A stretch of 64,000 bases of DNA from Trileptium ribeirensis (Eukaryota > Nematoda > Enoplea > Enoplida > Thoracostomopsidae). The stretch spans positions 1 to 64,000 of the forward strand of contig JASANE010019192.1 of assembly GCA_030248225.1 (NCBI GenBank). The letters run 5' to 3'. This document shows positions 26,764 through 51,353 of the stretch, one piece after another. Position numbers and translations under genes: made by a program. The notes beneath the pieces were generated by a model that saw only the letters and a program-made list of their open reading frames with translations, was not told the origin of the DNA and did no database searches. Positions within the stretch are counted from its first letter, which is position 1, and every line of letters starts with the position of its first letter.

Positions 26764-26764
26764 A

Positions 26765-31136: not shown

Positions 31137-31221
31137 GTAGGAAAAATACGGGTTCCGGGGGGCTTGATTAATGACCTGTCAAATTTTTAGGAGAAATAAT
31201 GATTACCCCGGGTCACGTGAC
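31137..31221 (+). repeat. Polinton left terminal inverted repeat
   Basis: This stretch matches the reverse complement of 51265-51353. Shared blocks are GTAGGAAAAATACGGGTT, CTTGATTAATGACCTGTCAA, TTTAGGAGAAATAATGATTA and CCCCGGGTCACGTGAC. It ends in a palindromic GTCACGTGAC. Confidence 0.92.
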
Positions 31222-31654
31222 CTGTCAAAAATGATTAATTACCGTAAATACATATACATATATACGTAATACATATAATAATAGTCCCCCTCCGCCCACG
31301 CATTTATATAATAAATAATGATACACCTTCGTCCACGCATATATGTTCATATACTCTACTATCCACAATATAATATAACATTGATGACTCATCACTTTGG
31401 AATGCTCTAGAAGCTTCTATTGGCACAATTCCAATAATACATCCAATCAACGTCAGCAGAGAATACATGAATAGGTTATAAAAGTCTGTGTAATTTAAAT
31501 TTTCAATCAGTTTGCAATGGCTTTCGTTTCTGAAATGGTGGGTTTTGTGTTTTCGCTGCTCTCCAAACCACTTTGGTTTTTTTGAGAGCTATCAAATTAC
31601 TTCACGTCGCAGCATGGGGACCCTGCTGTATTCCTCAATCACGGCAGGTGCCAG
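31222..31654 (+). promoter_or_regulatory. Left leader of the Polinton with a motif variant and TATA-like box
   Basis: No open frame matches a known protein here. ACATGAATAGG at 31466-31476, one base off the motif seen before other genes of the element, is followed at once by TTATAAAAG and, 40 bases after the motif, by an ATG at 31517 that opens only a 22-codon frame. The polymerase reading frame becomes recognisable from about 31655, so the true start was probably lost by frameshift. Confidence 0.45.
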
Positions 31655-34600
31655 TTGGAAGATGTGATCAAGGAACGGCTGTCTACATGGAATGGACTCA
31701 AGGCGTATATAGGAATGAAGGTTACGTTTGAGAAGGATATGGATCCTGATACGACAATCTTCTCTGGCAAATTACAACAGACTCAATTTGTCAACCGTCA
31801 ATCAACATACATCAATGATTTTCGACGATATTTTAAAGAACATTGACACGTTTGTTCAACGTGGATCTGGCTGGAAAGTCAAACAAGTGGAACATCTAGA
31901 TCTACACTTGGCTCGATACGTTGGTTTACGAGGGGCTACTTATAAGCCTCTACCAAAAACAATTCAAGCTAAAAAGGCTGTCGTCAACGTACAAAACACG
32001 GACAACAAATGTTTTCAATGGGCTGTATTATCTGTTCTTTCCCCTGCAAGCTGTAGTGCTAAGCGTCAATCGAAATACGAGCAATATGTTGATAATCTCA
32101 ATTTCGACGGTATCAACTTCCCGGTTCAAGTTAGCGACATCTGCAAATTTGAGAAACTAAACACTATTGGGGTCAGCGTTATTTCTTGCGAAGATGGCAA
32201 ACTAATACCGCTGCGTATATACGAAGGACCCTACGAGCAAGTGGTTAATCTACTTCTATACAAAGGACATTATTGCTGCATCAAGGATTTGGATCGATTA
32301 CTACATACACAACGAGGATATAAAGGACGTCTCTATATTTGTCAGCGATGTCTCTTTCCTCAATATTTCCAAGCAAAGTTGGATCTACATACGGAAATGT
32401 GTAAAAACAATGAATATACTCGAATAATGTTCCCCAAAGGCGACATTCTACAATTTCGAAACACCCATAAAATGCTTCGAGCTCTATATACCATCTACGC
32501 TGATTTTGATACCCTATTGATTCTTGCCAACCATGTCCATCAACTTCATACATTAAAGCTTATCAAAAACATCAAGTGTGTGGATATGGGATGATTGATA
32601 TTTCTCAATGCTGTGGAGAGGATACAAAAGAAATGGGGAAACCCGTGGTATATCGCGGTAAAGACTGCGTCAAAGTTTTTTACTCAGTGTAATTGAATTG
32701 GGTAACAAGTACCAAGAGCGCGTCAATAATCAAATACCGCTGCAGATGACTAAAGACGATTGGTTTCAGTACAACTACGCGAAAGATTGCTTCATTTGTG
32801 GTAAACAACTACTGTATGACCGTGTCAGAGACCACTGTCATCTTTGTGGTCGATTCCGAGGTGCAGTCCACAATGAATGCAACATTAGCTACAAGATAAA
32901 CCGAGATGTCAATATATTTTTCCACAACTTGCGAAAGTATGATGGTCATCTCATCATGCAAGAGATTGGTAAATTAACCAATCAACTTAAGATGGAGCTT
33001 GACTGTATACCCAAAGGTGCTGAGGATTATCTGTCCTTTAGCATCAAACTTCAACATCAAATTGTGGAACAGCAACATATGATCCCAATGGATACCTCGC
33101 TCATCTCTTTGATCTACATGACTCAATGCAACCAAAGATTCAACTTCATCTAGAAATTGACGAAGACGAACTGTCAGATGTGATTTCTCTTGATCAACTA
33201 GGTGACGGCGAAGATAGCGATATGGAGGATAACGAACTTTTGGATAATATTGCGGATGAGGATACTTTAGCAGCGGAAGAGAGTCCGAAGCCTAAAAAAT
33301 ATACTTGGTCTCTTAAATTTAAAGACACTTTTCAATTGCTGTCGTCGTCCCTCCAAGCGTTGGTGGATAATTTAAAAAAGGATGGTAAATTTCCGACAAT
33401 GGCGACGGAATTTGGAAACAATACGGAACTATTATTACGAAAGGGTGTGTACCCATACGATTATATGGACTCTAGGGAACGCATTGATGAAACGCAATTA
33501 CCATCTATCAATGCGTTGTACAATAAACTAAATGATCAAAATATAACTGAAGATGATTATAAACATGCTAAAAAAGTATGGTCTGAACTAAATTTGGTGA
33601 ACATGGGACAATACCATGATCTCTATGTAAAGACTGATGTTTTATTATTATGTGATGTATTTTAAAGTTTTAGAAATTTTGCTATTGATAATTGTTGGAC
33701 CCAGTACATTATATAGCGCTCCCAAGTTTTGGATGGGATGCTTGTTTAAAGTTGACAGGTGTTCGGTTACAATTGTTGAAAGACTCTAACATGTACATGT
33801 TTTTTGAACATGGCATACGAGGACGTATTGCAATGATTTCACCCCGTTATGCCAAGGCCAATAACAAGTATCTTGAAAATTGTGACTCAAGTAAGGAACC
33901 AAATTATATAATGTACTTGGATGCTAATAATTTGTATGGATGGACTAAGGTTCAGAAGTTACCTGTAGATGGATTTAAATTGGTTGAAGAGAGTCGAATG
34001 TCAGGGATAAATTGGTAAAACGATGAGGATATTGTTTATGTACTCGAAGTTGATTTAGAATACCCAGATTATTTACACACACTACACAGTGATTACGCTC
34101 TTGCTCCTGAGTCTATGAAAATTGAAGACTCAATGTTGTCCCCCTATTGCCTCCAGGTAAAGGACGATTTGCGAATGAAACATACCCCAGTTAGAAAACT
34201 TGTCCCTAATTTGAACAACAAGGCTAAATATATCGTACATGCTAGTAATCTGAAACTGTATACCGAATTGGGTCTCAAGGTAACTAAAATTCATAGAGCA
34301 ATTCAGTTTAACCAGCGAGATTGCATGAAACCCTATATTTTGTTTAATACCGAAAAACGCAAAGGGGCAAAGAGTGATTTTGAAAAGGATTTATTTAAAC
34401 TGCTAAATAACGCAGTCTTTGGGAAAACTATAGAAAACGTACGGGCTTATAAGAACATTAAACTTATAAATTGTCCGAAAAAGTTTCAAAAGTTGGTATC
34501 GAATCCTCGTTACAGTGGTAGTACAATCTTTGATGAAAATTTAGTGGCGGTTTCAATGAAGAAACCAAGTGTTTGTTTATGCAAACCAATTTACGTAGGA

Positions 34601-35171
34601 TTTACAGTTCTTGAGCTTTCCAAAATGTTTATGTATGAATTCCACTACAAATATATCAAGAACAGATATGATTGTCATCTGCTGTTTACCGATACTGACA
34701 GCCTCTGCTGTGATATATATGCGGAGGATGTCTACGGTGACATGAAGGAGGACATAGAATATTTGGACACCAGTGACTATTCACCCGATCACTTCCTATA
34801 CTCTACCACAAACAAAAAGGTTTTGGGTAATATGAAAGATGAAACTGCTGGGATTCCTATTGAAGAATTTTGTGGATTGAAACCAAAAATGTACTCGTTA
34901 AAATGTGGAGGTGTTGAGAAAAAAGAGCAAAGGGCGTAAAAAACAAACACTCAAAAAAGCTATACATATGGATCATTACATCCAGACTCTCAGAGATACC
35001 ACTAGACTAAGACATTTAATGAAAAAGATTTCAAACAATAAACATCAACTGTATACGGTTGAGCAGAATAAGATTAGTTTGAGCGCTTATGACGATAAGC
35101 GATATATTTTACTAGATGGGGTAACTTCTATTCCATACGGACATTATGATATTATGGATTGTTCTGATTGA
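31655..35171 (+). pseudogene. Protein-primed family B DNA polymerase (pPolB) of the Polinton, broken
   Basis: The protein replicates the element's linear DNA using a terminal protein as primer. Visible in order are an N-terminal segment with NGLKAYIGMKVTF and VQRGSGW (31655-31960), a CX2C...HX3C finger near 32340, the exonuclease motif YADFDTL (about 32498), an inserted endonuclease-VII-like finger with CFICGK and RDHCHLCGRFRGAVHNEC (32785-32880) followed by FFHNLRKYDGHL, YVKTDVLLLCDVF (33625), the palm motifs DANNLYG (33923) and LLNNAVFGKT (34403), and the catalytic FTDTDSL (34687). It is disrupted by frameshifts near 31818, 32600, 33130, 33680 and 34930 and by in-frame stops at 33663-33665 and 34016-34018. 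It cannot make a full polymerase. Confidence 0.93.
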
Positions 35172-35241
35172 TATTTATACTTCGTATTTATATATGTATT
35201 TTGTTCTATTTATAATAAAATTTAAAAAATTAGCATGAAAT

Positions 35242-35252
35242 ACATGAAAAGG
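35242..35252 (+). promoter_or_regulatory. ACATGAAAAGG motif before the gene at 35281
   Basis: The motif ends 28 bases before the ATG. It belongs to the recurring gene-start motif of this Polinton. Confidence 0.6.
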
Positions 35253-35280
35253 ATGCACATCCTATACATTACAAGTTAAT

Positions 35281-35625
35281 ATGGCAAACAAATCTGTTTC
35301 GTTTTCTGAATTTGTGGAGCAAGAACCCGAAATATATCAGAAGCAGAATTTCTGTGGTAAAAGAATTGATTTGAAAAAAGTGATTGCAATAGTCGTTACC
35401 CTGCTTACAAAAATCGCAATAGAGGCCTGTTTTCTGGTTAACAAACATGAAAAGAAGTCTTTTATTGAAGGAATATCACTCAATCGACCTTTATGCTTCG
35501 AGTATTGGACAAAGCCTCGAATTGAATCTTGGTTTCCAGCTCGTGGTTACAACATTCACTGGGTGAACCGAGCAAACGATAATCTACAATTTGAGATAAT
35601 ACTTCTTTCTCCCCGTTCCATCTAA
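35281..35625 (+). CDS. Polinton protein of unknown function, 114 aa
   Basis: An intact 114-codon frame lies between the polymerase remnant and the integrase, with its own ACATGAAAAGG motif 28 bases upstream of the ATG. It has no signal peptide; a moderately hydrophobic stretch (about residues 33-47) follows a basic patch. The C-terminal half, with CFEYWTKPRIESWFPARGY and IHWVNRAND, looks conserved-type rather than random. I do not recognise the family. Its size and position suggest an accessory or minor virion protein, but that is inference. Confidence 0.6.
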   Translation: MANKSVSFSEFVEQEPEIYQKQNFCGKRIDLKKVIAIVVTLLTKIAIEACFLVNKHEKKSFIEGISLNRPLCFEYWTKPRIESWFPARGYNIHWVNRANDNLQFEIILLSPRSI

Positions 35626-35685
35626 CTATTTAGTGAAAAGGTCGTCTATCTATTTGATGTATCTGAACATCTATTTTGAAGGTTC

Positions 35686-36139
35686 GTGATACCGTATAAA
35701 AACCTACTCATGCTGATTCAAACGGATGATACGTATAGAGGATTTTATTTAACAAATTGCAACTTGGAATACTGTTTCATCGCGAAATTGTCAACCTTCA
35801 ATTTTCAACGGGTCTTTGACAAACGACTGTTTAGAGTAAACATTAGAAATGCTGACCTATTCCTATCACGCGCAAACGAAACATCTGGAGTATGAAAATA
35901 GCAATACGTCTTGGTTTGTTGTGACAGAAGAATCGAGACAATGGATGATTGAAATATGTTTAACTGAATTTGATTATATAAAGTATATTGGAAACAATGA
36001 ATATGTAATGGAGAAACAATTTGATGATATTGTTGGTGTAGCAATGCCCTGTGGTATGTTAACACGTACAGTGAGGATTGTATATGATATTTATAAAGAT
36101 AAGATTGTAACCAATTCCCCAATAAACATGAAAAGATAA
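35686..36139 (+). pseudogene. Polinton protein of unknown function, frameshifted
   Basis: Two overlapping frames, 35686-35895 and 35849-36139, probably belong to one gene of about 150 codons with a frameshift between about 35850 and 35895. The first part has LTNCNLEYCFIAKLSTFNF, the second WFVVTEESRQWMIEICLTEF and ends SPINMKR. No family is recognised. The last codons overlap the ACATGAAAAG motif of the next gene, so genes are packed end to end here. Confidence 0.5.
36126..36135 (+). promoter_or_regulatory. ACATGAAAAG motif before the integrase
   Basis: The motif lies in the last codons of the preceding gene and ends 26 bases before the integrase ATG at 36162. Confidence 0.6.
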
Positions 36140-36161
36140 CTGCATTTTGTCTATATCAAGT

Positions 36162-37186
36162 ATGAAACTGGAAGATTTGTACTACAACTTGAAAAGCCCT
36201 GCCTCCATGTCAGGGGTAAACAAACTTTGGCAACATGCCAAAAAATATGGTTTTTCCAAACAGCAAGTTAAAGAGTGGCTACAAGGTCAGGATACATATA
36301 CACTTCATAAACCCAAACGGAAGAGATTTCGAAGGGTAAAAACAATAACAAAGGGTCTCAATGATATATGGCAAGCTGATCTTGCAGATATGACACGATT
36401 GTCTAGGTATAATGATGGCAACAAATATCTACTAGTGGTTATAGATGTGCTGTCTAAATTTGTCAGAGTTGCCCCACTTAAAGTCTAAAAACTGAAAATT
36501 AGTATGCGAAGCATTGGAAACCATGTTTCGCATTAACCGTCCAAATCATATTTCTCGGATCGTGGCGCTGAATTTACAAATATCACCTTCAAAAATGTCT
36601 GTCAAAAGTACGAAATAATTTGCTACACTGCCCAGAATGTTGAAACCAAGGCTGCAGTTGCGGAAAGGTGCATCCGTACTTTGAAATCCAAAATATATCG
36701 ATACCTTACCAAACACAATACGTATCGCTATATCGTCATTTTGCAAGACATTGTTGATAACTACAATCACACAAAGAATCGTTATGGTGTCCGTCCAGAG
36801 GATGTATGTGTTGAAAATCAATCTGATATTTTAAACATTTTGTACCCTCATCCCTCATCGAGGACACAGAGTTCTTTCATACAAGTTTAAGCTTAATGAT
36901 GACAAGGGATACAAACCGCAATGGTCTCAAGAAGTATTTTATATTACAAGACGAATACATTCAGATCCTCCTCGTTATAAAATTAGCGACTACGGAAATG
37001 AAGATATCTTGGGAACATGGTACGAGCAGGAGCTTCAAAAGGTGCGTGTAGGGATACCTTTAAGATTGAAAAAATATTGAAAAAACGTAGAACGAAAGAT
37101 GGTACTCGTCAATATTTAGTAAAATGGCTTGGATATCCTGAAAAATTCAACAGCTGGGTAGATGAGCAAGACATGAAAAGAGTATG
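36162..37186 (+). pseudogene. Polinton integrase with C-terminal chromodomain, broken
   Basis: The retroviral-type (DDE) integrase inserts the element into host DNA. Seen in order are the N-terminal segment LEDLYYNLKSPASMSGVNKL, the linker DTYTLHKPKRKRFRR, the first catalytic Asp in WQADLADM, LVVIDVLSKFV, then a stop at 36486-36488. Further on come the second catalytic Asp in FSDRGAEFTN (about 36552) and the Glu in KAAVAERCIRTLK (about 36650), a core-end segment with YGVRPEDV, an SH3-like stretch (36885-37040), and a chromodomain containing IEKILKKRRTKDGTRQYLVK and WLGYPEKFNSWV (37065-37170). The start is set at ATG 36162 because it lies 26 bases after the gene-start motif. The stop and frame changes between 36488 and 36550 and near 36890-37050 inactivate it. 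Confidence 0.92.
37171..37180 (+). promoter_or_regulatory. ACATGAAAAG motif before the packaging ATPase
   Basis: It ends 3 bases before ATG 37184 and 27 bases before the in-frame ATG 37208. The second spacing matches the other genes and supports 37208 as the real start. Confidence 0.6.
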
Positions 37187-37825
37187 ACCCACTTATCAAT
37201 ATTAAAAATGGAGTCAACGCCGTTAGAAGGACCGTTTACCTGTATTGTGTCAGGCGCAACAGGAATAGGGAAAACTCATCTTGTGGCTCAACTGTTGCGT
37301 AAAAATCTATTTGATAAGCAATTTGAAAAGGTTGTTTGGTGTTATGCAGTAATGCAACCTATGTATCATCAATTGTCAGAGGAAATGGATAATTTAACGT
37401 TTGAAGAAGGATTCTCGACCTTTATTGAAAGGAATGAAGGACAAACTCTGTACATACTTGATGAATTGTTGGAATACTCAAATGACAAAACATTAGCAAA
37501 CATGTTTACCCGAATGCGACATGCAAATATTAGCACTATATTTATAGTGCAAAACTTTTATCATTCTGGAAAGTACATGACAGAAATTTCCAGAAACGCT
37601 CAGTATTTATTTCTATTTCCAAATCCTCGTTCGAAATCGATGATTGCAACATTAGGAATACAAATGTGGCCTCATAAGCCCAACTTTTTATCTACAGCGT
37701 TTGAAATGGCAACCAATGGGAAGCCATACAGCTATCTGATGATTGATCTCAAGCCTAATACACCTGAGGGTTTACGTGTTAGGGAAAATATTTTTGATCA
37801 AACTGCAGTATACAAACATACATGA
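37184..37825 (+). CDS. Genome-packaging ATPase, FtsK/HerA superfamily
   Basis: In capsid-forming elements this ATPase pumps DNA into the empty shell. The intact frame (213 codons from 37184, 205 from 37208) has the Walker A loop GATGIGKT at about residue 25, the Walker B strand LYILDELLEY near residue 86, and a sensor segment TIFIVQNFYHSGK, followed by RNAQYLFLFPNPRS, all typical of the Polinton/adenovirus-like packaging ATPases of 200-250 residues. It is the best preserved core gene. The stop overlaps the ACATGA of the next motif. Confidence 0.92.
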   Translation: MTHLSILKMESTPLEGPFTCIVSGATGIGKTHLVAQLLRKNLFDKQFEKVVWCYAVMQPMYHQLSEEMDNLTFEEGFSTFIERNEGQTLYILDELLEYSNDKTLANMFTRMRHANISTIFIVQNFYHSGKYMTEISRNAQYLFLFPNPRSKSMIATLGIQMWPHKPNFLSTAFEMATNGKPYSYLMIDLKPNTPEGLRVRENIFDQTAVYKHT

Positions 37826-37829
37826 AAAG
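37820..37829 (+). promoter_or_regulatory. ACATGAAAAG motif before the gene at 37858
   Basis: The motif overlaps the ATPase stop codon and ends 28 bases before ATG 37858. This spacing is the reason for starting the next gene at 37858 and not at the later open segment. Confidence 0.6.
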
Positions 37830-37857
37830 ACACGTTATCGTGATATCTATAAAAGAT

Positions 37858-38547
37858 ATGGAACGTCATTCCACAACAATATCTCTGTCCTGTGCCTTGG
37901 TTAAAACTGACAAGAAATGTGTTAAAAGTTTTATGAAGTCTGCCCCCGTATAGGTAATCAAGTCTTTGAGTGAAAGTTGTTATAATATTTTATATGGAAA
38001 TATTCCTCTTACTGAGCAGCAGATTATGATGCTACGCAAGCAACGTTCGACAATTTACAAACTATCGTCTTTGAAGTTGTCTGATAACATAAAGACAACA
38101 TGCTACAATGGATCTTTTAAAAACATTAATTGCAGTATGGCCAAACGATATCTGTTAGTGCCTCCCAGCTGGTTAGAGAAACAAACTCAAAGTAATGGAG
38201 AACCAGTGAAAGTAAGCGTAGATACACTTGAGGACAAGCCAAAGGAAAATAATTCAAGTCTAATTTCCAAGCGCCTACAGTCCAAGGTCAAACTTCTTTC
38301 CAATCATTTGAAAACCGTAAAGCAAGATGCAAACAATCGTGTTCAGTATACTGACGGATCTGTGGGATCAACACTTTACGATATCGTAAAGTATTTGGTA
38401 ACTGACAGCGGAAAACTTTCAGCTCCCCGTCCAATAGACATTGCCCAATTTCGAACAGAGTATATGCAGGGGGTACCGAATGGGGCTCTAGGGAGAGGCA
38501 AGGAAGTACATGAAAAGAAAAGTATCGACTGGAAACGTTTATATTGA
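37858..38547 (+). pseudogene. Polinton structural-type gene with one in-frame TAG
   Basis: From ATG 37858 the frame stays open apart from a single TAG at 37951-37953. Sequence on both sides reads as one protein: KKCVKSFMKSAPV before the stop, then VIKSLSESCYNILYGNIPLT after it. The SE-x(5)-NI-x-x-GNIPLT segment followed by basic Leu-rich residues recalls short basic proteins often found next to capsid genes in Polintons and related viruses. The C-terminal half (38140-38547) is soluble and basic with no known motif. It could be read through, edited, or simply dead. Confidence 0.6.
38508..38517 (+). promoter_or_regulatory. ACATGAAAAG motif before the NADAR gene
   Basis: The motif lies in the end of the preceding gene and ends 35 bases before ATG 38553. 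Confidence 0.6.
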
Positions 38548-38552
38548 ACAAT

Positions 38553-39092
38553 ATGTCAACATCAACTACGTTTAAGATTTATGAATCAAAAGACGGTCGA
38601 GTCTTGGCGCTATTTGCTACAGGCTATTGTCCATTGAGCCGCGTACATGTTGCTGATTTCAAGGTACACGATATGACGTATAGTAGTATTCAGCAATATT
38701 ATGAATCCGAGAAGGCGAACAACTTCAACTGCTATGAAGCAAGATATGAAATATTGATGGAACGCTCTCCCAAGAAGATAATAAATATTGGGGAAAATTT
38801 AAAATTTTTCGGCCAACCAGGATGGGACAAGGTCAAGTATGATGATGTACTTAAAGCAATAGAGGCTAAAGCCAATCAACATAACCCCACCTACGACTTG
38901 TTGATATCTACAAAAAATGCTGTGATTGCAGAGGCAAGCAAATTTGGTAACGGGATTGGGCTATATATAGAAGACGCAAACGTCAGCGACATCAGTCTTT
39001 GGACTAAAGACAACTCGTACGGTCGTCTTTGGATGTCTGTTCGCTATGGACTTCAAAATAACCAACTTAATGGTAAAGACTACAACCAGTAA
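38553..39092 (+). CDS. NADAR-domain protein (YbiA/DUF1768-like ADP-ribose N-glycosidase)
   Basis: The intact 179-codon protein has the complete NADAR layout: CPLSRVHVADFKVHDMTYSS near the N-terminus (family PLSNFYP...F.V.G..Y.S.E), QQYYESEKANNF, a helix with IINIGENLKFF and W.K.K.D.....I.AK, then LLISTKNAVIAEAS and GIGLYI, and the closing W...NSYGRLWMSVRYGL. The family hydrolyses N-glycosidic bonds in ADP-ribose-type compounds, and some members remove ADP-ribose from guanine in DNA. Length is typical. The first ATG after the gene-start motif is used. The 3' end overlaps the TBP-like gene by 47 bases in another frame. The role in the element is unknown; repair of its own DNA or evasion of host ADP-ribosylation are possibilities. 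Confidence 0.8.
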   Translation: MSTSTTFKIYESKDGRVLALFATGYCPLSRVHVADFKVHDMTYSSIQQYYESEKANNFNCYEARYEILMERSPKKIINIGENLKFFGQPGWDKVKYDDVLKAIEAKANQHNPTYDLLISTKNAVIAEASKFGNGIGLYIEDANVSDISLWTKDNSYGRLWMSVRYGLQNNQLNGKDYNQ

Positions 39093-39561
39093 TAACATTA
39101 ACTTGCTACAACTCAGCAGCGTTCTACACCGATTACGATACAACCCTCGACGTTTTCGTGCTGGCACTTTAAAGTTGTCAAGCGGAAGTGCAATGGTATG
39201 GCCAAATGGCAAACTACTGTTTCTGGGATACAAATCAATGGATGACTTGCGTTCGGATGCGAAGAATTTTAAGAAAATTTTGAAAAACTCTGGATACTGG
39301 ATTGATGAATTTGAATTTGAAATTTGTTCAGTAACTGTTGTGTGTAACTGTAACGCTGCTATTGATTTAAATGTTTTGTATGAAAAGCTGAGCGGCGATT
39401 ACACTATAACATACATACCGGAATTATTTACAAGTTTGAGTTTTAGATATAAAAGTGGGACATTGTCCGTCTTTAGAACAGCGAAAATTGTAGTAACAGG
39501 TGTAAAGTCTCTTGGTGATATGTATGATATTGTATATGATGTAGGTAACTTAATTTTTTGA
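39046..39561 (+). CDS. TATA-binding-protein-like protein encoded by the Polinton
   Basis: The 171-residue intact frame is about the size of the conserved TBP core and shows its two-fold repeat. Repeat 1 has YNPRRFRAGTLKL, then MVWPNGKLLFLGYKSMDDLR and a helix ending LKNSGY. Repeat 2 has FEFEICSVTVVCNC, YIPELFTSLSFRY, LSVFRTAKIVVTGVKS and a final helix. The positions of the four DNA-intercalating aromatics of TBP are kept as Phe (RRF), Trp (MVW), Phe (PELF) and Phe (SVF). TBP bends promoter DNA and nucleates transcription initiation. There is no N-terminal extension. It overlaps the end of the NADAR gene and has no gene-start motif of its own, so the two are probably co-transcribed. Confidence 0.88.
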   Translation: MDFKITNLMVKTTTSNNINLLQLSSVLHRLRYNPRRFRAGTLKLSSGSAMVWPNGKLLFLGYKSMDDLRSDAKNFKKILKNSGYWIDEFEFEICSVTVVCNCNAAIDLNVLYEKLSGDYTITYIPELFTSLSFRYKSGTLSVFRTAKIVVTGVKSLGDMYDIVYDVGNLIF

Positions 39562-39584
39562 AATAAAGAAAAAACAACAGCACT

Positions 39585-39595
39585 ACATGAAAAAG
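39585..39595 (+). promoter_or_regulatory. ACATGAAAAAG motif before the gene at 39625
   Basis: A variant with five A residues, ending 29 bases before the ATG. Confidence 0.55.
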
Positions 39596-39624
39596 TTATT
39601 TTATGCTATTTATAAACAGTTTAA

Positions 39625-39969
39625 ATGGAGATTATTGTAGCAAGAAAGCTAAGTGATCTAAAGGTACTGCTTCCTATACCAATAGAAGCTGAGTATTTGA
39701 CTGTAATGGGTTACAAGCTATTTGGATCCATAGATAAAACTAAAATGCCTTACATGATTAAGGCTAACTTTATTGAACCAAAAATATTAAACTCTGGGTT
39801 TTCGGAAACATTATGCGTTCTAACAGGACAAAAGGTGGACAGTTATTCCAAATTGAAGAACAGGTTTACTTCAGAATTAGTGCTCGAGGTTATTGACAAC
39901 GCAGGAAACAGATTTTCCTCGCTTGCGGATAAAGTTTTATACTTACATTTAAAGTTTATAAAAACATGA
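39625..39969 (+). CDS. Polinton protein of unknown function, 114 aa
   Basis: An intact frame with its own motif 29 bases upstream. It has no membrane segment or signal peptide. The C-terminal part, with LVLEVIDNAGNRFSSLADKV and LYLHLKFI, has a beta-strand-rich look with an ..DNAGN.. turn, a pattern I associate with small virion proteins near capsid genes in these elements, but I cannot name the family. Its position directly before the capsid gene fits a structural role. Confidence 0.55.
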   Translation: MEIIVARKLSDLKVLLPIPIEAEYLTVMGYKLFGSIDKTKMPYMIKANFIEPKILNSGFSETLCVLTGQKVDSYSKLKNRFTSELVLEVIDNAGNRFSSLADKVLYLHLKFIKT

Positions 39970-39974
39970 AAAGG
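39964..39974 (+). promoter_or_regulatory. ACATGAAAAGG motif between the 39625 gene and a small basic frame
   Basis: The motif overlaps the stop of the preceding gene. No ATG follows at the usual distance, but a small basic open segment starts at 40012. Confidence 0.5.
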
Positions 39975-40011
39975 ATTTTAGTCTGTTAAGATTTAAAACA
40001 ACGTCTATTAA

Positions 40012-40101
40012 GATCGGCCCAGTTTTAAAGCGATAGAGGACAAACCCAAAAGAAAACCCCGGAACCCCAACCGAAAACCCCCCAAACCTGGAGGAAAATA
40101 A
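40012..40101 (+). pseudogene. Remnant of a small basic Pro/Lys/Arg-rich protein
   Basis: An open segment without ATG encodes about 29 residues ending DKPKRKPRNPNRKPPKPGGK. It lies 37 bases after an ACATGAAAAGG motif, where the other genes have their start. Such short, very basic peptides occur as core or DNA-condensing proteins in adenovirus-like systems. It is too short to prove, and an ATG lost by mutation is assumed. Confidence 0.3.
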
Positions 40102-40128
40102 GTAAAGTTGTTACACGAAGGGTTAAAA

Positions 40129-40138
40129 ACGTGAAAAG
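40129..40138 (+). promoter_or_regulatory. ACGTGAAAAG motif before the major capsid gene
   Basis: A one-base variant of the gene-start motif, ending 37 bases before ATG 40176. Confidence 0.55.
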
Positions 40139-40175
40139 AAATTGAAACGCTTAAAATCCAAGAAAATTTTCTAAT

Positions 40176-40858
40176 ATGGAAAACTGTGCAGTTCAAAACC
40201 TTGATTGGAGTAGAAAACCTAAACAGCAGAATGAGATTGAAAGCTGTCAGCTTGTCGAGTTTATCAGTGTCAGCGGACAGCAGATTCAGGATGCCGCAAC
40301 ACCACTGGAATTTAAGATTCCAAAGTCCGACTACTTGGTGGATATGAATCAGCTGTTTCTCAAATTCAACGTAAAGCTGATCACGAAATCGGAAGCTCAA
40401 ACACCCAAAGCCGCAGCCAACAAGTCACCCCCAAAGAAACGAAATAAAAGACAAACCCTTGCAGTTGTACCTTGTAATGAATTTGATTATGCAGTATTTA
40501 GTCAAGTTGACGTCAAAATCAACAATGAGATTATAACATCAAACCAAACAAACTATCCTTGGATGACCTATATCTTGAACCTTTTACATTACCCAAAGGA
40601 AGAGCGAAACTGCCATCTTCGTACTGCTCTTTGGTTTCAAGATACTGCTTATTCTATGGATAGTTTCGAAGTCAATGAAAGCGCTACAGCTAGACAAGCG
40701 TACTTTTTCAACAGTGATGAGTGTACATTATACCTACCAGTGGTAACTTCGGTTATATTCAATGGCGGATATCTACCACCACAGACGGAAGTATCGTTGA
40801 AATTTTCTCGAAGTGCTCCAACACAAATTGTTCAAGCAAAAGACAATGCTCAATGTAA
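40176..40858 (+). pseudogene. Major capsid protein, N-terminal part, interrupted by a nested element
   Basis: The first 227 residues of a Polinton double-jelly-roll capsid protein. Features are an N-terminal IQDAATPLEFKIPKSDYLVD strand, LFLKFNVKL, FDYAVFSQVDVKINNEII with TNYPWMTYILNLLHY, the LRTALWFQDTAYSMD segment and YLPPQTEVSLKFSRS. The reading frame runs into the terminal repeat of an 8.3-kb insertion at 40859, giving a stop at once. Codons resume in frame at 49162 beyond the insertion and one TAA copy. The insertion therefore happened in a still-open gene. Confidence 0.9.
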
Positions 40859-41210
40859 TTGCTGATTCACAGAATAGTGCGACCATCTACTCGAAAATTT
40901 TTGTTACATACGACATGTTGTATGTAACCAATGTTACATACGACATGTCGTATGTGACATTTGTACATAGAACTCTACGAAATGAACCTAATACTGCCGG
41001 TATATTTTTATATTGGTGCCCTCTCTAGTTTGATGTTGGTGTTCCCTTCCAGTTTGATATTGGTGCCCCTCTTCAGTTTGATATTAGTGCCTCCTCCAGT
41101 TTTATATTGGTGCCCCCTCCAGTTTGTTACTGTTGCCCCTCCAGGTTGATATTGGTGCCCTCTCCATTTTGATATTAGTGCACCCTCCAGTTTAATATTG
41201 GTGCACTGGC
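40859..41210 (+). repeat. Left inverted end of the nested element
   Basis: After the 17-bp tip come the conserved ACCATCTACTCGAAAATTTT, two copies of a palindrome around ACATACGACATGTCGTATGT (40906-40957), ACATAGAACTCTACGAAATGAA, and eight or so 22-24-bp units of the type CCAGTTTGATATTGGTGCCC (41012-41206). The right end has the same order inverted, with five palindromes and fewer 23-bp units. Confidence 0.9.
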
Positions 41211-43390
41211 AGAAAGTATTAATATACGCGTTTCTATTCGCCATTGATTAATGTATATTTTAATATGCTAAACAAAGTTGTGATTTTCTGTTAACTGTTC
41301 TGTTCACTGGCAAAATACTGGCGTAAAATAAGTCGTAGTGGGTGATAATATCATTTCGGGCAAAAGTCTATTTAATGCGCTAGCCCATGCCCGCGTGATT
41401 TCAAGAAATAAATTTTACATTAAAAATTTATAAGTGGGAATTTTGGAATTTCAATAATATTATTGCGTAAGGTTATATATGAACAACGTATATATCTACA
41501 ACGATATATGTATATATAACGGTATCGAACCTGGAGGTTCCACTTATTATGCAGTACATAACTTTAAATTCTTTCAATGAAATGAAAAGGATATATCTAT
41601 TGACGTTTGCATAATAAACATTTGAAACATCGTAGGTTTTATTCTATATATAAATTGCCCGGCTGTTATCACAATGCTGTTATACCACTATACGTTGCTG
41701 TTCATATGTAATAACCGGTGACGCAGCTGCATGGCGCAACTTCCTAACACCATGCCCATACGACCCCGGCTATCGTAACCTCAAGGGTGGACCGTGAATA
41801 CTGAAATTTTAGTCCTACTCTTGGTCAGACCCAAGAAGCTACGCAGCTTAGCAGGCCGCAGGCGCGCTTTACGGGGTGTGTTCGGACCCCGCCCGAAGGG
41901 TTGCGCACGTGTCTAGTTTCGGGTATGATTCCTGAGGTCCCCCAGGGAGGCTATCACCGCCACCTGCTCACAGGTCATGGAGACTAGCCGCTGTTTCCTA
42001 TCTTAGACTCATCGGAAGTTGTTTAGTTCTAATTTGTTGAGTTAAACGTTGGGATAAAGGCTGAAAATGTCCTTAGAAATTTGAGGCTCAAGTTGATTTG
42101 CCTAGTTAAGATCTTGATACGCTCCGTGTTAGAGCATTGACCTATGTGGCCCCCACAGGGTTCCGACATACCCTGGAAGTTTAATGTCGGATTATCAATG
42201 GCGTGGCCTGCTTCCTCAATAAATTCTTTGCGAGCGTACTGGTACCTTGACCAGTGGAAGCTTTAACTTATTAAAATAGAGAAGATTCCTAACAAATTTT
42301 GAGTCACTGTCATAAACGGGTTAAATTTTGCCGATATTTTCCAGCTATTTTATTTCCTAGTTCCGGTAATAAAGCGTAAATGGATATGTCAGAAGGCCAT
42401 GCGCGCCAGTGCTTGTGACATTCTCGCCCACAAGCCATGGCGAGCAGTGCCTGCTCGTCCGAGCGGACAAACCGGAAAAAGCTCCCTATTGTCTCGGTAT
42501 GCAATAAGACTCCACTCGGTGTCAACGATACAAATTTATTTACATGATCAACTTTTTACCTTGGGGACGAGTGTTTGTGAACACATGTTGGGGCGAACTA
42601 AGTAAATCGAGTCGGGGAAGCCTAGCAGCAGCTCACAGTGGTCGCTTCAGTCCGGTAGATTATGGGGCACAAGACAGTAAAAAGGGAAACATGTACGGAG
42701 CATGCAGATACCCGCGCGTGCGCGGACTAGGGGCGGTATCCCTGCTTTAGCTCAATGTTGGCGATTGTTTCAGCTATGGGGCACAGCAAGCAGGGGCCCT
42801 AGAGTGCTTCAGAAAATGCTCCTTAACGTACTGACTCAAACATCTGGTGGTCGACACTAAACTATGCCAATGGGAAGATGAAGAGTAAAAACGGGGTTTG
42901 GTACTACGAGCTCTACTCTAACCACATTACTCTTACCAATACGGTGGTCCGGTTAATATTCGACAGGGATCCGATTGTTATGCCGACAGAATGGTTTTCG
43001 TTATCGTCTCCGATCAATTTGCCTATCAAAGGTACGACTGACCGAACGGGAAGCAGGAGAAAAATGAAGGGAGGGGCAAAATTCATCACATTCAGGCAGG
43101 GGAATGTGGTCGTGACGTGGAATGACACGACACGCCCTCCTAGATAATTTTTTGAGGCCGCCCCCAGGGGCGAGCCAGATGCCTATCTTGAATATGTTTC
43201 TTCAGCCATAATCCTCATAGGGGCCCGGTGGGGCACATTGTATGAGTAGCGCACATCTTGCCGGACGGTTATCTGGTCTTATGTCCTAGTCTAGGAGTCG
43301 TTTTGAGCGGGCGGGCATGGGGCGGTCGGCCCCAGACGCATCTGCGTCTTCTCTTGTCTCCTTGCGTTTTCTCGTTGCCTCTCTCTATAA
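41211..43390. other. Interior of the nested element, left part: non-coding, hairpin-bearing
   Basis: No gene is recognised. From about 41750 the GC content rises and short inverted repeats follow one another: CTTGG/CCAAG near 41820, AAGCT/AGCTT near 41836, CGGGGT/ACCCCG near 41873, ACCTG/CAGGT near 41963, CTGGT/ACCAG near 42238, CGAGCAG/CTGCTCG at 42441-42457 and GTGTT/AACAC near 42563. The open frames present (for example 42878-43147) match nothing known. Confidence 0.55.
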
Positions 43391-43408
43391 ATGCTTTTTC
43401 TTTTGTAC

Positions 43409-43476
43409 ACTGCAATATTGCAGTGCCTCAACTGCACTGTACTGCAGTTGAGTTATCATCGACATAATAGTCGATG
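43409..43476. repeat. Three consecutive perfect hairpins
   Basis: ACTGCAATATTGCAGT (43409-43424) is a perfect palindrome. It is followed by a 10-bp stem CTCAACTGCA/TGCAGTTGAG with a 6-base loop (43427-43452) and a 7-bp stem CATCGAC/GTCGATG with a 6-base loop (43457-43476). Only a few bases separate them. Confidence 0.85.
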
Positions 43477-43477
43477 T

Positions 43478-43548
43478 TGTTGTGTTCCTCCTGGCTTAAT
43501 GGTTAATACTAATGAAACTGCAGTGGGCTCAAATTCCCCGTACAGGAT
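43478..43548 (+). repeat. tRNA-like segment inside the nested element
   Basis: TCCTCCTGGCTTAATGGTTA contains a good polymerase III A box (TGGCTTAATGG) and GGCTCAAATTCCCC resembles a B box 40 bases later. The ends TCCT and AGGA could pair. The length (about 66 bases) and the anticodon arm are not those of a normal tRNA, so it may be a decayed tRNA or SINE head. Confidence 0.4.
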
Positions 43549-45130
43549 CAATTTATGATACGGGAAAATAGAACTGGCTGGCACTGAAACTGTAGAAAAA
43601 CTGAATCTGGGCATACATAGTACGTAGCCTAAAAGGCAAACCAAGATAAAACTAAAGAAAAGCCAAACTCAGCGATCAACTCGCTTCGAGAAGAAAAAGG
43701 GGTTTTGCACTCGCCCGGTTTGGGGCCAAAATGGCACAGGCGAGGAGGTAAGTTTTCTTTATTTTCAGGAGGTACTAAAAAATTTTTTTGAAGGCGGGAA
43801 CACGGAGTGTTTCTCCCGCAAGGGCGTTATCTAGTAATGGCGCAAGGGCATGCTTTAATTCTATTTCTTTTAGACAATGGTCTCGAGAGAAGACCATGGC
43901 GTAGTACAATGGTGAACACCGGTAAACTTAGTTGTTTTAACCAAGTAGTTATTTGGGGTCCAAAACTGGTGTATTACCACAAAAACGAAGCGTCATCGTC
44001 ACCGATCGAGGTCGGCGAAATTTGCTCAGCTGGGGGCTTGCTCCTGCAGCTCATTTTTGGATAACACGGGGGTCAAGAGGGACCTAAAGTTACTCCGGTC
44101 AGTCGTCACAATGAAATTTGTATTCGGGTGAGATATCTATTAAATTTGTTGAAAGTCGGTGACAAAAGATTAAACCGAGACAATCCTTAAGCAACATTCC
44201 GCGTAGGCAGCAAACACCTTAAACTCAAGTGACGGTACCTAGAATTTGATCTGTCTTTTGTGTTCCCAAATTTTCTTAGCTCAAAAGAATAAAACCAAAT
44301 TTTAAGGACTTCCTAAAGCTCGACGGAGGCTAGTCCTCCATCCCTAATCTGCGTTTCTGTCCAAGCCCAAACTGGGCATGGGCGTTGAACAATCCACTAA
44401 GCTGTAAATTTGTAAACCGTGAACGTAAAAGTAAAGCAAGTCCTTACCGGTTCAGCTTCTAGGGTCGGAAAGTTTTACCGTGGTCTGCTCAACAAAAATT
44501 CAATGATCCTACCTCAAGAATTGCAAGTCACGTAAAGCGTGGACCAGAGACGTCCATTTTGTTTTGTCCTACCTAAGACCACGGGGAATCAGAAAGACTT
44601 TGAATTGGTTTGATCAGTCCTCACTGCACTCTATACGGGCACATCCCGAATCGCCTAACGTCTCCCACATCGGAACTCGATACTAATGATTGATTCCAGA
44701 AACGGGTTATGTGTAGCATTTCGGTGGGAACTGAGAGTTAGCACCCGAACGAGAGTGTTTGTTTCTACCTAAGTGCGAAGGGTGCGCTACATTCAAGGGG
44801 TAGCTCAAGGAACGGCATGTTACTCTTCAATTGACAGGAAAAATAAACCCCTGCTATCGCTAAACCTTCCTCACACTTACGGCTGTTGATCCTTGGGGCA
44901 GCACCAGCTGAACCCCCTTAGCGAGGTATAGATTTACGCGGAAATCTTTCGTCCATCGAGTCAATCAGATGCGAAAACGAAAAGCGAGAGAAAACCCGAG
45001 TCATATGAAAACTATGAACGTTAAAATAGAGCGTCGGAGCCGGTCAGTAAAGTCGACCGAATTCCTCGCTGTCGAAGTCCAACTGATTCGACGAGTCAAC
45101 GCGTTAGTCATCGCCTCGAATTTTTCGCCC
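43549..45130. other. Interior of the nested element, middle part: no gene recognised
   Basis: No protein-coding frame of note. Short perfect stems continue, for example ATGGTCT/AGACCAT (43877-43897), GCGGGA/TCCCGC near 43796-43820 and GTCGAA/TTCGAC (45071-45092). I checked for resemblance to rRNA and snRNA and recognise none. Confidence 0.5.
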
Positions 45131-45138
45131 ATAGTTTA

Positions 45139-46182
45139 GGATAGCGATATTGTCGCTATCCAATCGTCGCTGGTCGGGCAACACCCATTTTTCTTGGGTT
45201 TTAGTTCAGTGTCCAATTGGGGACACTTCCGGAAACACAAATCTTGACGGCTACCGTAAGCCGTCGATGTCCTTAAAGAGAGTCGGCTTCAATTAGATTT
45301 ACCGACATCAAGTTTGAATCTTCCGAGTACTCGGAAGTTGACCATCTGTGATTTTCGTCCCAATTTTTCCAAGAAAAGTAAATTTTGAAGTCCCAATTTC
45401 CCGTAATTATCGCCGGATGTCCAGCGAAATCGGATCCTAAACTCCCAATGTTTAAACGGCTTCCGGTCTCAGCTTAATTCGAACTATTGGAAATACTTTC
45501 GGGTCACGCAATTTCCTTCTTCAGTCCCAATTAGCGTGACAATCTGGTCGACTTTGGAGTGTTTGCTCGTCCCAGCCCATCTCAACTCGGCGGCTATTGA
45601 CCTGCCTTTTGTGTTTCTCGAGTTGCCGCCCTCCTAATTAAGCTAAATTGAATTAGGAAGGTGACCCTAACTCGCAAGGACACCTTAGAACGTCAAGAGA
45701 AATCAAGCTAATTTATAATTTTCATGCGAGTATCTAAGTTTCAAAGTCGCGCCGGGGGGGAACCGACGGCGGGAACATGCCCATCTCGAGGCCAGAGACG
45801 GGGCGAATTCTAACGTACTCTTAACTAGTAAGGGGCCCTGCTGCAAGGCCCCTCGGGTCCGCGGAAGGCCCTAAAGTCGCCCCCGTCCGTCCTAACTGTC
45901 CGTATTCTGTCCGTCCGTAAAACTCTGAAATTTAGTGAATTTCAGTATGTGGTGTCCTCGTTCGTCCGTTTTTCCATGTCCTTATATACATAGTTATGTA
46001 CTTACATATATCTATATATTCATATATCTATACTCACATACACAAACACATGCACTACACACAGTAGACATAACGGCGTCCTGAGCGACAGAAAGGTCGC
46101 TCAGGATAAACACAAACTCACAACACACCAACAACAACAACAACAAGGCGACAAAGAAGAAAACCGACCAGAAATGTCGGTT
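45139..46182. repeat. Array of short perfect hairpins, mostly with 6-base loops
   Basis: Perfect stems are GGATAGCGA/TCGCTATCC (45139-45161), AGTGTCC/GGACACT (45208-45227), GACGGCT/AGCCGTC (45246-45265), CTTCCGAGTACTCGGAAG (45320-45337), GGGGCC/GGCCCC (45832-45852), CCTGAGCGAC/GTCGCTCAGG (46080-46105) and AACCGAC/GTCGGTT (46162-46182). Three of the loops are exactly six bases. The first four are spaced 40-75 bases apart, which is dense for chance. This could be a structured RNA or a site array. No function is known to me. Confidence 0.75.
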
Positions 46183-47540
46183 AGAGAGAGAACGAGGACA
46201 AAAAGCGAAAGGACAGCGAGGACACGAAGAGGGCGTGGGAAGGGAAGCGGGACAAGGGGAATCCCGGGGGAATTTCGAGGGGCTGGGGCGAGATTCGGTC
46301 CCAGGACGAAAAATGCGGCCGATTGATACCAAACACAAGAGGGGGTAGACATAGAAGCAGGTTGGGACCCACACATGGGTTGACGTAATAAGATGGGGAG
46401 TTTAGCGGGTTGAGGTTGGGGAGGAGCGTGGGTTCGATGGGGTGGAGGGGGATCGTTCGGGGCGAGGGGTAAAAATGATGTAAAATTAACGATTAGAGAG
46501 AGGGGGCTGCGGGGCGCTCGCACCTCGGGTTACGGGGCGAGGCGTCTCGCCGGGTATTTGGAGATGTCTGAAAAGCGAATAAATGAGGGGCGATTTCCTA
46601 CTTTCGAGTTAGAGATTGGTTTGTTGGTTGTTTTGTCCCATTTTATGGCGATGGCCGGGGGCGCTTTGGTGGCTTGCTGCGGGCTAGCGGAGACGAGCCC
46701 GATACGTTGCGCCCCGCGCGCGGTCGGGTATCCCGAGTTTCACACGTACTTTAAGGGCGTAAGCACAAAATAATCTACAGCAACCCTGGTTGTCTGGTTG
46801 ACCCCAGGTCTGTTGATCTCATGGTCATAGAACAATTCGCCAAGATGATGTAAAGGAAATAGATACTAGGCGCAAGCGCAGTTTTGGGGCATTAAAGGGC
46901 GCTGTAAAAGGATTGCTCAGTACAGTGGGGGCGGAAAGAAAAAAAATAAAAGTATCAAGGCACGTAAAAATCAAACAATACACACATACATATATATACA
47001 TAACTATTTATCCCTAAATGCATGTATACAACTGAGTTGCACCCACTCGGAACCAGGGTCCACCACCTAGCGTAAGTAGTGGCTGTTAGTTGAGCATTTG
47101 TCTGTTCGCCCCGATATCTCGAATCCCCCGTAATTTGTCATCCTACCTCGTTCGAGGCCTGAAAATTCTCTACATACTGAGGCATCTTGGGAAATCTCGA
47201 TCCTTAACGGTTCGGCCGATGAACAGCCCGATCGTAGTTTCGAACATTCGAAGCTACGTAACCATTTGTTTCAGCTTACTGGTGCGCCTTACGTGTGAAG
47301 CTAACAGGACTGATCTAGGATTTTGATCACTTCTCACCCTTAGATCGTAAAGCCTCTATTCGGCGTCATTCGTCGAAGTTTTAATGTGATGGCGCCGCTT
47401 GGGGTTCGGCATGTTCTATTTTCTGTCGGTGTGGAGTTAGGTCCAGCCTCTAAATGGTTGGCACTTTCATATTTCGCGATCCGCGCCACTCGTCCAGCGA
47501 TCAGATAAGCAACGAAAATAAAGATGAAGAGCCAATATTA
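46183..47540. other. Interior of the nested element, right part: no gene recognised
   Basis: A purine-rich plus strand (46183-46520) gives long artificial Pro/Ser-rich frames on the minus strand. A 71-codon frame at 46558-46773 has a hydrophobic centre but no known motif. Nothing else is supported. Confidence 0.5.
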
Positions 47541-47549
47541 TGAATAAGC

Positions 47550-47925
47550 ATCAAATGAAAAGATAGATCATGGCATAAGCATAATTGATAAACGACGAAT
47601 ACGGCTTAAATGATAAGAAGAACAATATAGATAGCATAAAATGATAAGAACGAACCCAATTATAGCATACGGTATAAGATGATAAGAACGAACCCAATTG
47701 TAGCATATGACATAAAATGATAAGAACGAACCCAATTATAGCATACGGCATAAAATGATAAAAACGCATCAGATTATAACATACGGCAAAATGATAAAAA
47801 CGAACCAGATTATGACATACGGCATAAAATGATAAAAACGCATCAGATTATAACATACGGCAAAATGATAAAAACGAACCAGATTATGACATACGGCATA
47901 AAATGATAAAAACGAATGATCCTAT
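47550..47925 (+). repeat. Minisatellite of GCATAAAATGATAAGAACGA-type units
   Basis: Units of about 38-40 bp built on CATAAAATGATAAGAACGAA, CCCAATTATAGCATACGG are repeated about nine times. From about 47750 a two-unit higher-order repeat of about 74 bp appears, with ACGCATCAGATTATAACATA alternating with ACGAACCAGATTATGACATA. Confidence 0.9.
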
Positions 47926-48810
47926 TGATGTTCCCGAGTAAATTTGAAGTCGAAATCATTGAAAAGACGCGTAACGGGGCCGGAACGGGCCTGTTACACA
48001 TATTGTAGTGCAAACACTCATTTACTTTAGGGCAAAATTTGATGACATTATTTTTACATTTGATGAATGTGGTCAGCGGAGATAGCGTCTTATTCTAACG
48101 TATATCTGAAATTGTGTTAGGATTGTGTTATGATTATACGAGCATATGACTGACATTGAACATATCAAGGACATTGACTGATTGTGCACTAAATAATCAT
48201 ATGTGTCATAAATATATAAATAATCAATAATTTAAAACAAATATCAATACCGCTATTGTATGAGTAAATATGCGTTGCGTACCATTTTAAAGCCTTGTTT
48301 AGTTATTCGAAGACGACAATTTATAATAACATTTATAAATATCTTGGGAATATCACTTATGTACAGATTTACAGCGGATGACAAGTTCCGATGTCACTGT
48401 TGTTATAAATTCCGTATTGCTAAACCAATATGTGATAGCGCAGCAATAAATCTAAGGTATGTCATCGTCGACGGTACACAAAACTCGTACTTATTTCTTT
48501 CGTTTCATTGAGCGAACTTTCCCTTGTTTATTGTTAATCACCAATTATTGTACAAAGTTGCTGTTCAACGAATGATATAATAAACAATTTAGAATTTCGC
48601 AACCTGCTCTTGCTTTCAGCATTCCTTCGGAGCGGTGCAAAAAATAATTACAGGCCGGCCTAGCTCATTTTACTTCATGGTTAACAATGCTTCAAAAGAT
48701 GCATGTCGGTTATGTTTTCACAAAGTACACTTCAATATATATACATTCTCACTTGTACTGTGGCATAATGAATATACAAAATATTTACGCACTCTTTGGA
48801 AGTGATGTTT
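47926..48810. other. AT-rich interior flank of the nested element
   Basis: No gene is seen. An 83-codon frame (48260-48511, +) has no recognisable motif. Confidence 0.5.
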
Positions 48811-49158
48811 CAAATGCACCAATATCAACCTGGAAGGGGGTACCGATATCAAACTAGATGGAGCACCAATATCGAACTGGAGGGGAACACGTAACAAACC
48901 AGAGAGGGCACCAATATCAAAATATACTGGCAGTATTATTTTCATTTCGTAGAGTTCTATGTACAAGTGTCACATACGACGTGTCGTATGTAACATTGGT
49001 TACGTACGACATGTCGTATGTAACATTGGTTACATAAGACATGTCGTATGTAACATTGGTTACATACGACATCTCGTATGTAACACGGGTTACATACAAC
49101 ATGTTGTATGTAACAAAAATTTTCGAGTAGATGGGCGCATTATTCTGTGAGTCAGCAA
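48811..49158 (-). repeat. Right inverted end of the nested element with five tandem palindromes
   Basis: Reading inward from 49158 on the minus strand the sequence repeats the left end. Between 48968 and 49112 there are five palindromes around TACGACATGTCGTA with GTTAC/GTAAC ends, spaced about 29 bases apart; the left end has two. The innermost part consists of CCAGTTTGATATTGGTGC-like units. Confidence 0.9.
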
Positions 49159-49161
49159 TAA

Positions 49162-49297
49162 TATGATCATCAGCGAACTGATACTCAGAGCAAGCCTCTT
49201 GAAGATAAAAAGTGGTGCTTTGGACCACTATGATAAGATATATCGATCGAAGGGAGGTCTCTACCCCTGCGTGACGTGTGAGATGCGAATTTTTTGA
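49162..49297 (+). pseudogene. Major capsid protein, continuation after the nested element
   Basis: The frame is the one interrupted at 40858 and remains open for about 44 codons to a TGA at 49295-49297. The residues IISELILRASLLKIKSGALD followed by HYDKIYRSKGGLYPC and CEMRIF fit the second half of Polinton capsid proteins, but 250 or more residues are missing after it. The gene had thus also lost its 3' end, by stop or deletion. Confidence 0.75.
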
Positions 49298-49348
49298 GTA
49301 TATACCATTGTTGCTTAAACAGAACTGAATCGGTACATCAGCATTATG

Positions 49349-50507: not shown

Positions 50508-50638
50508 TGTCGGCTTTGGGATATCGGAGATTACAGGGGTTGTCGTGAACGTGTTAACAAACGAGTTAGTCATACACAAGGTAAAAACCTGGGATTAGCA
50601 TATAATTTTTTAAGGATGAAAATGTTGAGGATCAACGC

Positions 50639-51264: not shown

Positions 51265-51353
51265 GTCACGTGACCCGGGGCAATTAATCATTATTTCTCC
51301 TAAAAATTTGACAGGTCATTAATCAAGTGCCAAAAAACCCGTATTTTTCCTAC
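51265..51353 (-). repeat. Polinton right terminal inverted repeat
   Basis: Reverse complement of the left end, with the same GTCACGTGAC palindrome at its inner limit and AACCCGTATTTTTCCTAC at its tip. Differences from the left copy are a few substitutions and short indels, indicating an old insertion. Confidence 0.92.

Follow-up and report, generated by a model that had tools for sequence, protein, structure and literature searches.

A TATA-binding-protein homologue within an apparent Polinton, and a motif shared by the upstream regions of most of its genes

Introduction

Polintons (Mavericks) have been assigned a position close to the root of many DNA viruses of eukaryotes and, to our knowledge, hardly anything is known of how their genes are switched on. 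Precedents for viruses with transcription proteins of their own come from other groups: the nucleocytoplasmic large DNA viruses encode RNA polymerase subunits, and the beta- and gammaherpesviruses have late-gene factors resembling the TATA-binding protein (TBP), which use the host RNA polymerase II and a TATT-type motif. Mirusviruses are reported to encode a TBP (PMC10132985), and their genomes to encode RNA polymerase subunits as well. The gene set of vertebrate Mavericks, as given in section 7 of PMC8097293, comprises pPolB, ATPase, PM, PZ, integrase, two capsid proteins, PW, protease and unnamed accessory ORFs, and intact elements measure 12.7-24.6 kb. No TBP is named in that section, and an earlier, preliminary description of the DNA treated here knew of no standard Polinton gene set that has one.

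Viral TBPs are thus known, as are Polintons, and a TBP within a Polinton was not found described in the open-licence literature searched, some of it accessible only in part, where absence is not proof. In passages of two papers that mention both Polintons and TBP, the TBP is one of mirusviruses or of mirus-like elements. The terms TATA, TBP, NADAR, TFIIB and transcription factor are absent from the main texts of PMC11071296, PMC10328495, PMC11071308 and PMC10120064, and "TATA" and "transcription factor" from PMC8097293 and PMC4028283. The locus described here lies in a stretch of 64,000 nucleotides (the window) from the nematode Trileptium ribeirensis, and our preferred explanation of it, held with moderate confidence, is that its TBP homologue is part of the gene complement of a Polinton lineage and serves the element's own promoters.

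The element and its gene content

The TBP gene sits within what looks like a Polinton (Table 1), the location proposed in the preliminary description. Upstream lie the packaging ATPase, identified as of the A32 type by its match to PF04665 (E=1.6e-7, 31.5 bits against a cut-off of 22.8), and an integrase region ending in a chromodomain (PF00385 at 37002-37187, E=4.8e-13); downstream is the capsid-like ORF, and candidate terminal inverted repeats lie outside, the ATPase being a feature in common with described Polintons and the other three apparent ones. On the broken integrase piece 36132-36488, rve (PF00665) reached E=0.031, under the cut-off. The region upstream of these genes was labelled pPolB from polymerase motifs that we presume to recognise in it; its tested pieces, which are broken, matched no Pfam polymerase family, and the one match above cut-off there was to Endonuclease VII (PF02945, E=9.8e-6, on the piece 32662-33153). 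Positions 37954-38547 had no family match. We take the capsid-like ORF to resemble the capsid proteins of animal Polintons; the piece matched nothing in Pfam or NCBIfam, and its 229 residues modelled poorly (pLDDT 41.6), giving a fold too poor for use.

Table 1. Features of the element and of the motifs within it (positions in the window).
Feature	Coordinates	Strand	Remark
Candidate left terminal inverted repeat	31137..31221	+	89% inverted match to 51265-51353
ACATGAAAAG, one mismatch	31465..31474	+	42 nt upstream of pPolB ATG 31517; TATAAAA next at 31477
pPolB-like region, about eight open frames	31517..35171	+	frame from ATG 31517 ends after 22 codons
ACATGAAAAG	35242..35251	+	29 nt upstream of ORF 35281
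ORF, 114 codons	35281..35625	+	open frame
ACATGAAAAG	35445..35454	+	no assigned start downstream
ACATGAAAAG	36126..36135	+	26 nt upstream of integrase ATG 36162
Integrase region, four open frames, C-terminal chromodomain	36162..37187	+	rve below cut-off; chromodomain
ACATGAAAAG	37171..37180	+	27 nt upstream of ATPase ATG 37208; 3 nt upstream of ATG 37184
A32-type packaging ATPase	37184..37825	+	likely start 37208; PF04665
ACATGAAAAG	37820..37829	+	28 nt upstream of ATG 37858 (31 codons)
Small-ORF region, ATPase to NADAR	37858..38547	+	31-codon frame at ATG 37858, followed by a different frame
ACATGAAAAG	38508..38517	+	35 nt upstream of NADAR, hence of the NADAR-TBP pair
NADAR-domain protein, 179 aa	38553..39092	+	Pfam PF08719, E=7.7e-19
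TATATATA	38962..38969	+	84 nt upstream of TBP ATG, within NADAR; chance possible (12% per 150 nt)
TBP homologue, two half-repeats	39046..39561	+	171 aa frame
ACATGAAAAG, one mismatch	39585..39594	+	30 nt upstream of ORF 39625
ORF, 114 aa	39625..39969	+	no family match above cut-off (Pfam, NCBIfam)
ACATGAAAAG	39964..39973	+	no assigned start downstream
ACATGAAAAG, one mismatch	40129..40138	+	37 nt upstream of capsid-like ORF
Capsid-like ORF, first part	40176..40865	+	apparently cut near 40858
Insertion candidate, about 8.3 kb, with flanking inverted repeats	40858..49159	.	apparently interrupts capsid-like gene
Candidate right terminal inverted repeat	51265..51353	-	pairs with 31137-31221

The stretch that seems to split the capsid-like gene is apparently a later mobile element within the Polinton, flanked by inverted repeats at 40858-40958 and 49059-49159 (92%) and at 40902-41113 and 48816-49025 (87%), which contain tandem 30-nt palindromic units and 23-nt repeats. 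The outer pair of repeats, which aligned over 89 columns at 89%, may be the ends of the Polinton itself; by eye, no clean 6-bp target duplication was seen beside them. This copy of the element is decayed, as is evident from the pPolB-like region in about eight frames, the integrase in four and the interrupted capsid-like ORF, and its present activity is therefore doubtful. Several copies of a palindrome containing GGTGGGTTAC were noticed by eye at 49290-50520, near short ORFs at 49499 and 50606 that had no Pfam match, and are perhaps a further element. An ORF at 26174-26902 resembles, by eye, a non-LTR reverse transcriptase. Across the whole 64-kb window there was no Rfam family at its gathering score and no tRNA.

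The TBP homologue and its descent

The preliminary description had read the 171-residue frame as a TBP homologue with aromatic residues (Phe, Trp, Phe, Phe) at the four DNA-intercalating positions, and had named a profile search and a structure comparison as checks; each came out in favour of this reading. Pfam family PF00352 matched in two stretches of the frame (E=2e-22, above cut-off), the tandem half-repeats that mark the TBP superfamily, the predicted structure has the TBP saddle fold, and the alignment places F37, W52, F128 and F143 at the intercalating positions. Ten NCBIfam models also matched, every one under its cut-off, in a collection built for bacterial and archaeal annotation. 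The pair of asparagines that contact the minor groove is incomplete by the alignment: N7 is retained, and the second is a serine, S95. The frame has therefore been filed, on its sequence, as a TBP homologue and not as a canonical TATA-specific TBP, and that it has stayed intact is weak evidence of selection. It differs from the eukaryotic and archaeal TBPs of PF00352 in the tryptophan at the second intercalating site, in the serine in place of the C-repeat asparagine, and in being only 24% identical to human TBP and 25% to that of yeast, whose cores are 82% identical to each other. With the TBPs of nucleocytoplasmic large DNA viruses and mirusviruses it has in common a TBP fold encoded by a virus or virus-like element, and structure matches in BFVD include Heterosigma akashiwo virus 01, Terrestrivirus and Ectocarpus siliculosus virus 1, at 8-21% identity among the 50 matches listed.

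Closer relatives were few. A search with the single sequence scored 41 candidates, one of them under E 1e-3: P0001, a protein of 192 aa that is 52% identical to the window's and comes from an ENA contig of 10,495 bases. Searching with the alignment of these two scored 690 candidates, nine at E up to 1, and added P0002 (49% identity, 899-base contig) and seven more distant TBPs at 23-37%. In IMG/VR neither the TBP, in three scans (0/17, 0/95 and 0/40 pattern matches), nor the ATPase (0/84) had a confirmed relative, and there was none among 589 candidates from a prokaryote genome collection; tblastn against 50,697 phage records likewise returned none.

In a tree of 12 rows, in which five of the nine inner branches are open and three end branches are very long, the window's protein forms a clade with P0001 and P0002 (support 97/98). 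Joining it to the four eukaryotic TBPs without these two was rejected (AU p=0.0005), and making the whole lineage sister to the same four gave a constrained tree 5.5 log units worse (AU p=0.059), a relation neither supported nor rejected. On such comparisons the lineage is shown to be one long separated from the eukaryotic TBPs compared. A phylogeny was among the checks for which the preliminary description had called.

Overlap with the NADAR gene and a second contig

The TBP start lies in the final 47 nt of the NADAR frame, in a different phase; such tight packing resembles that of viral genomes and fits poorly with a retrocopy. In our explanation, to which as a whole we give the moderate confidence stated above, NADAR and TBP form two overlapping cistrons, TBP being the second, with the packaging ATPase on one side of them and the capsid-like gene on the other. 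Enzymes of the NADAR family act on substrates that are ADP-ribosylated or belong to the riboflavin pathway, and the element's NADAR may be a counter-defence gene. Beside its Pfam match, the protein reached E=5.2e-20 and 72.3 bits against TIGR02464 (cut-off 73.7) and E=5.3e-5 against NF053876, an anti-phage NADAR member in NCBIfam, at only 22 bits against a cut-off of 240. A further NADAR-like ORF lies outside the element at 27061-27543 (PF08719, E=2.2e-10), and blastp between the two proteins gave no match at E 10.

A second contig probably carries the same arrangement. Among 71 candidates scored with the ATPase, six had E up to 1e-10, and the best, P0010, is 70% identical to the window's ATPase and comes from a single ENA contig, 10,495 bases long. 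The size and source being those recorded for P0001, the two proteins are, by these criteria, likely on one contig: both are single-member clusters, and none of the 13 other returned proteins is on a contig of 10,495 bases, the nearest being P0004 at 10,476. All codon choices were allowed in back-translating the N-terminal extension of P0001, which was then read in the phase of the window's NADAR/TBP overlap; in that phase it can encode 12 of the 19 residues of the window's NADAR C-terminus, against seven in the other phase. As controls, none of 3,266 20-mers and none of 5,000 shuffles reached 12 (three and one, respectively, reached 11). For the 13 residues adjoining the start the fit is 11, and the highest in the controls was eight (3,368 windows) and nine (100,000 random 14-mers). 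Because the extension fits the NADAR end in the overlap phase, both elements probably owe the overlap to a common ancestor. The preliminary description had suggested looking for the gene at the same position in other Polintons, and this one further contig, probably with a TBP (52%), the same ATPase (70%) and a NADAR gene (11/13 in the overlap), answers the suggestion in part.

A motif upstream of most genes

The preliminary description had also credited the element with an upstream motif of its own. All seven exact copies of ACATGAAAAG in the 64 kb lie within the element (35242 to 39973) and on the + strand, and neither strand has another elsewhere in the window; by chance, 31137-40865 would be expected to hold 0.05 copies. 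At eight of nine assigned starts (pPolB, 35281, integrase, ATPase, 37858, NADAR, 39625 and capsid-like) a match of 9 or 10 letters in 10 stands 26-42 nt upstream. Away from these starts, 17 of 1,086 sampled windows inside the element match at 9 or 10, and outside it one of 3,000 sampled positions matches at 9 and none at 10. The ninth start, that of the TBP gene itself, has no copy upstream (best match 5/10), as would be expected if TBP is read from the NADAR promoter. These figures are to be read with the manner of their making in mind, since the motif was selected once the sequence had been examined, and in 5 of 300 simulated sequences some 9-mer, counted whatever its letters, occurs at least eight times, as one does in the element. 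Some of the starts (those of the ATPase and of some small ORFs), moreover, were selected in knowledge of the motif, and those at 37858 and 31517 open frames of 31 and 22 codons only. The exact copies at 35445 and 39964, which precede no assigned start, also count against a promoter role, although the one at 39964 may mark a decayed small gene upstream of the capsid-like ORF.

With its near-constant spacing upstream of most genes, ACATGAAAAG looks like a core promoter. TATA-type elements stand about 30 nt upstream of the transcript start, and such a spacing would here give leaders of about 6-22 nt. TATA-type promoters may also occur in the element: TATAWAW boxes number 13 against 8.6 expected in 31137-40865 and lie within 100 nt upstream of four of the nine starts, namely pPolB (31477), 35281 (35189), 37858 (37848) and TBP (38962). 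With an alternative set of eight starts (pPolB at 31815, integrase at 36132), a box within 150 nt is found at TBP only. A TATTWAR motif like that of herpesvirus late genes was also tried and rejected, with 8 copies against 6.6 expected and hence no enrichment in the element.

Residue changes and their possible meaning

The three lineage members (the window's protein, P0001 and P0002) were compared with nine other aligned TBPs. Residue 52 is Trp in all three, and Phe (eight) or Tyr (one) in the others; at the site of the C-repeat Asn the three all have Ser and, of the others, P0005 has Thr and eight have Asn. On this alignment W52 and S95, common to the lineage and found in none of the nine, point to an altered DNA preference. 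Changes are also seen at sites that, in the human protein, we take to be contacts with general factors. R29 and R31 stand at the positions of N189 and E191, presumably TFIIA contacts, and all three members are basic there (N189 to R, E191 to R/K); Arg is present at the E191 position in P0004, P0005 and P0008 too, and so is no mark of the lineage. At E284, E286 and L287, presumably TFIIB contacts, the window's protein retains the last two and has Ile for E284, one change in three, two of the three residues differ in P0002, and E284 is lost in two of the three members.

A proposed model for transcription of the element

As we picture it, the TBP homologue would saddle and bend minor-groove DNA at the element's promoters and would recruit the host RNA polymerase II machinery, thereby favouring transcription of the element, by analogy with the viral TBP-like proteins of some herpesviruses at late genes. 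The host enzyme is proposed because Pfam recognised no gene for an RNA polymerase subunit in the ORFs scanned. Mirusviruses and large DNA viruses have subunits of their own. The likeness to the beta- and gammaherpesvirus factors is one of analogy, a viral TBP-like protein that works with host RNA polymerase II, and the motif here is ACATGAAAAG and not of the TATT type of those viruses. The best candidate target of the TBP homologue would be ACATGAAAAG, and that the protein reads it is a hypothesis we would advance only tentatively. A self-contained promoter system, in which a TBP of changed specificity reads ACATGAAAAG before nearly all genes and passes them host RNA polymerase II, is on balance doubtful. 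Taken at this strength, the locus suggests that the element may have had control over its own transcription.

Alternative explanations

The residue changes would also fit a different role, that of a decoy or inhibitor which occupies the partners or promoters of host TBP and damps host transcription or defence instead of activating the element. The basic residues at the presumed TFIIA contacts in all three members, the absence of E284 from two of them, and an adjoining gene whose family has an anti-phage member (NF053876, at the low score given above) speak for such a role, which we nevertheless think unlikely, given that the N-repeat Asn and the four intercalating aromatics are intact in all three members, that the E191 site is basic in three other aligned TBPs, and that the element has its own upstream motif common to most genes. 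Somewhat less likely again is that the polymerase of a helper large DNA virus serves the element, as for virophages, with ACATGAAAAG mimicking its early promoter and the TBP an accessory derived from it. The TGAAAA core of ACATGAAAAG resembles, as we take it, poxvirus-type early promoters; the viral structure matches, where named (the best is nameless), are mostly to nucleocytoplasmic large DNA viruses, and the tree neither supports nor rejects the lineage as sister to the eukaryotic TBPs. Set against this, we know of no helper virus for animal Polintons, those structure matches are of low identity among the 50 listed, and the three TBP scans and one ATPase scan of IMG/VR confirmed no relative.

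It would be far more improbable that the gene is a recently captured host copy, or a host gene flanked by chance. Polintons and their relatives do capture genes, but human and yeast TBP are far closer to each other than either is to this protein, which clades with P0001 and P0002, and a NADAR overlap in matching phase is probable for the second contig. A recent retrocopy of the host TBP gene, which the preliminary description had named as the outcome that would undo its reading, was rejected as a candidate on the same low identity, with human and yeast as the named cellular TBPs compared, the neighbourhood, with its NADAR overlap, the clade and the AU test, and is most unlikely.

Conclusions

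A TBP homologue that belongs to a Polinton lineage and serves its promoters would mean that an element of small size encodes a basal transcription factor, viral TBPs being otherwise known mainly from much larger genomes. Together, an element's own TBP and a common upstream motif would answer, in a concrete and testable way, the question of how Polinton genes are switched on.
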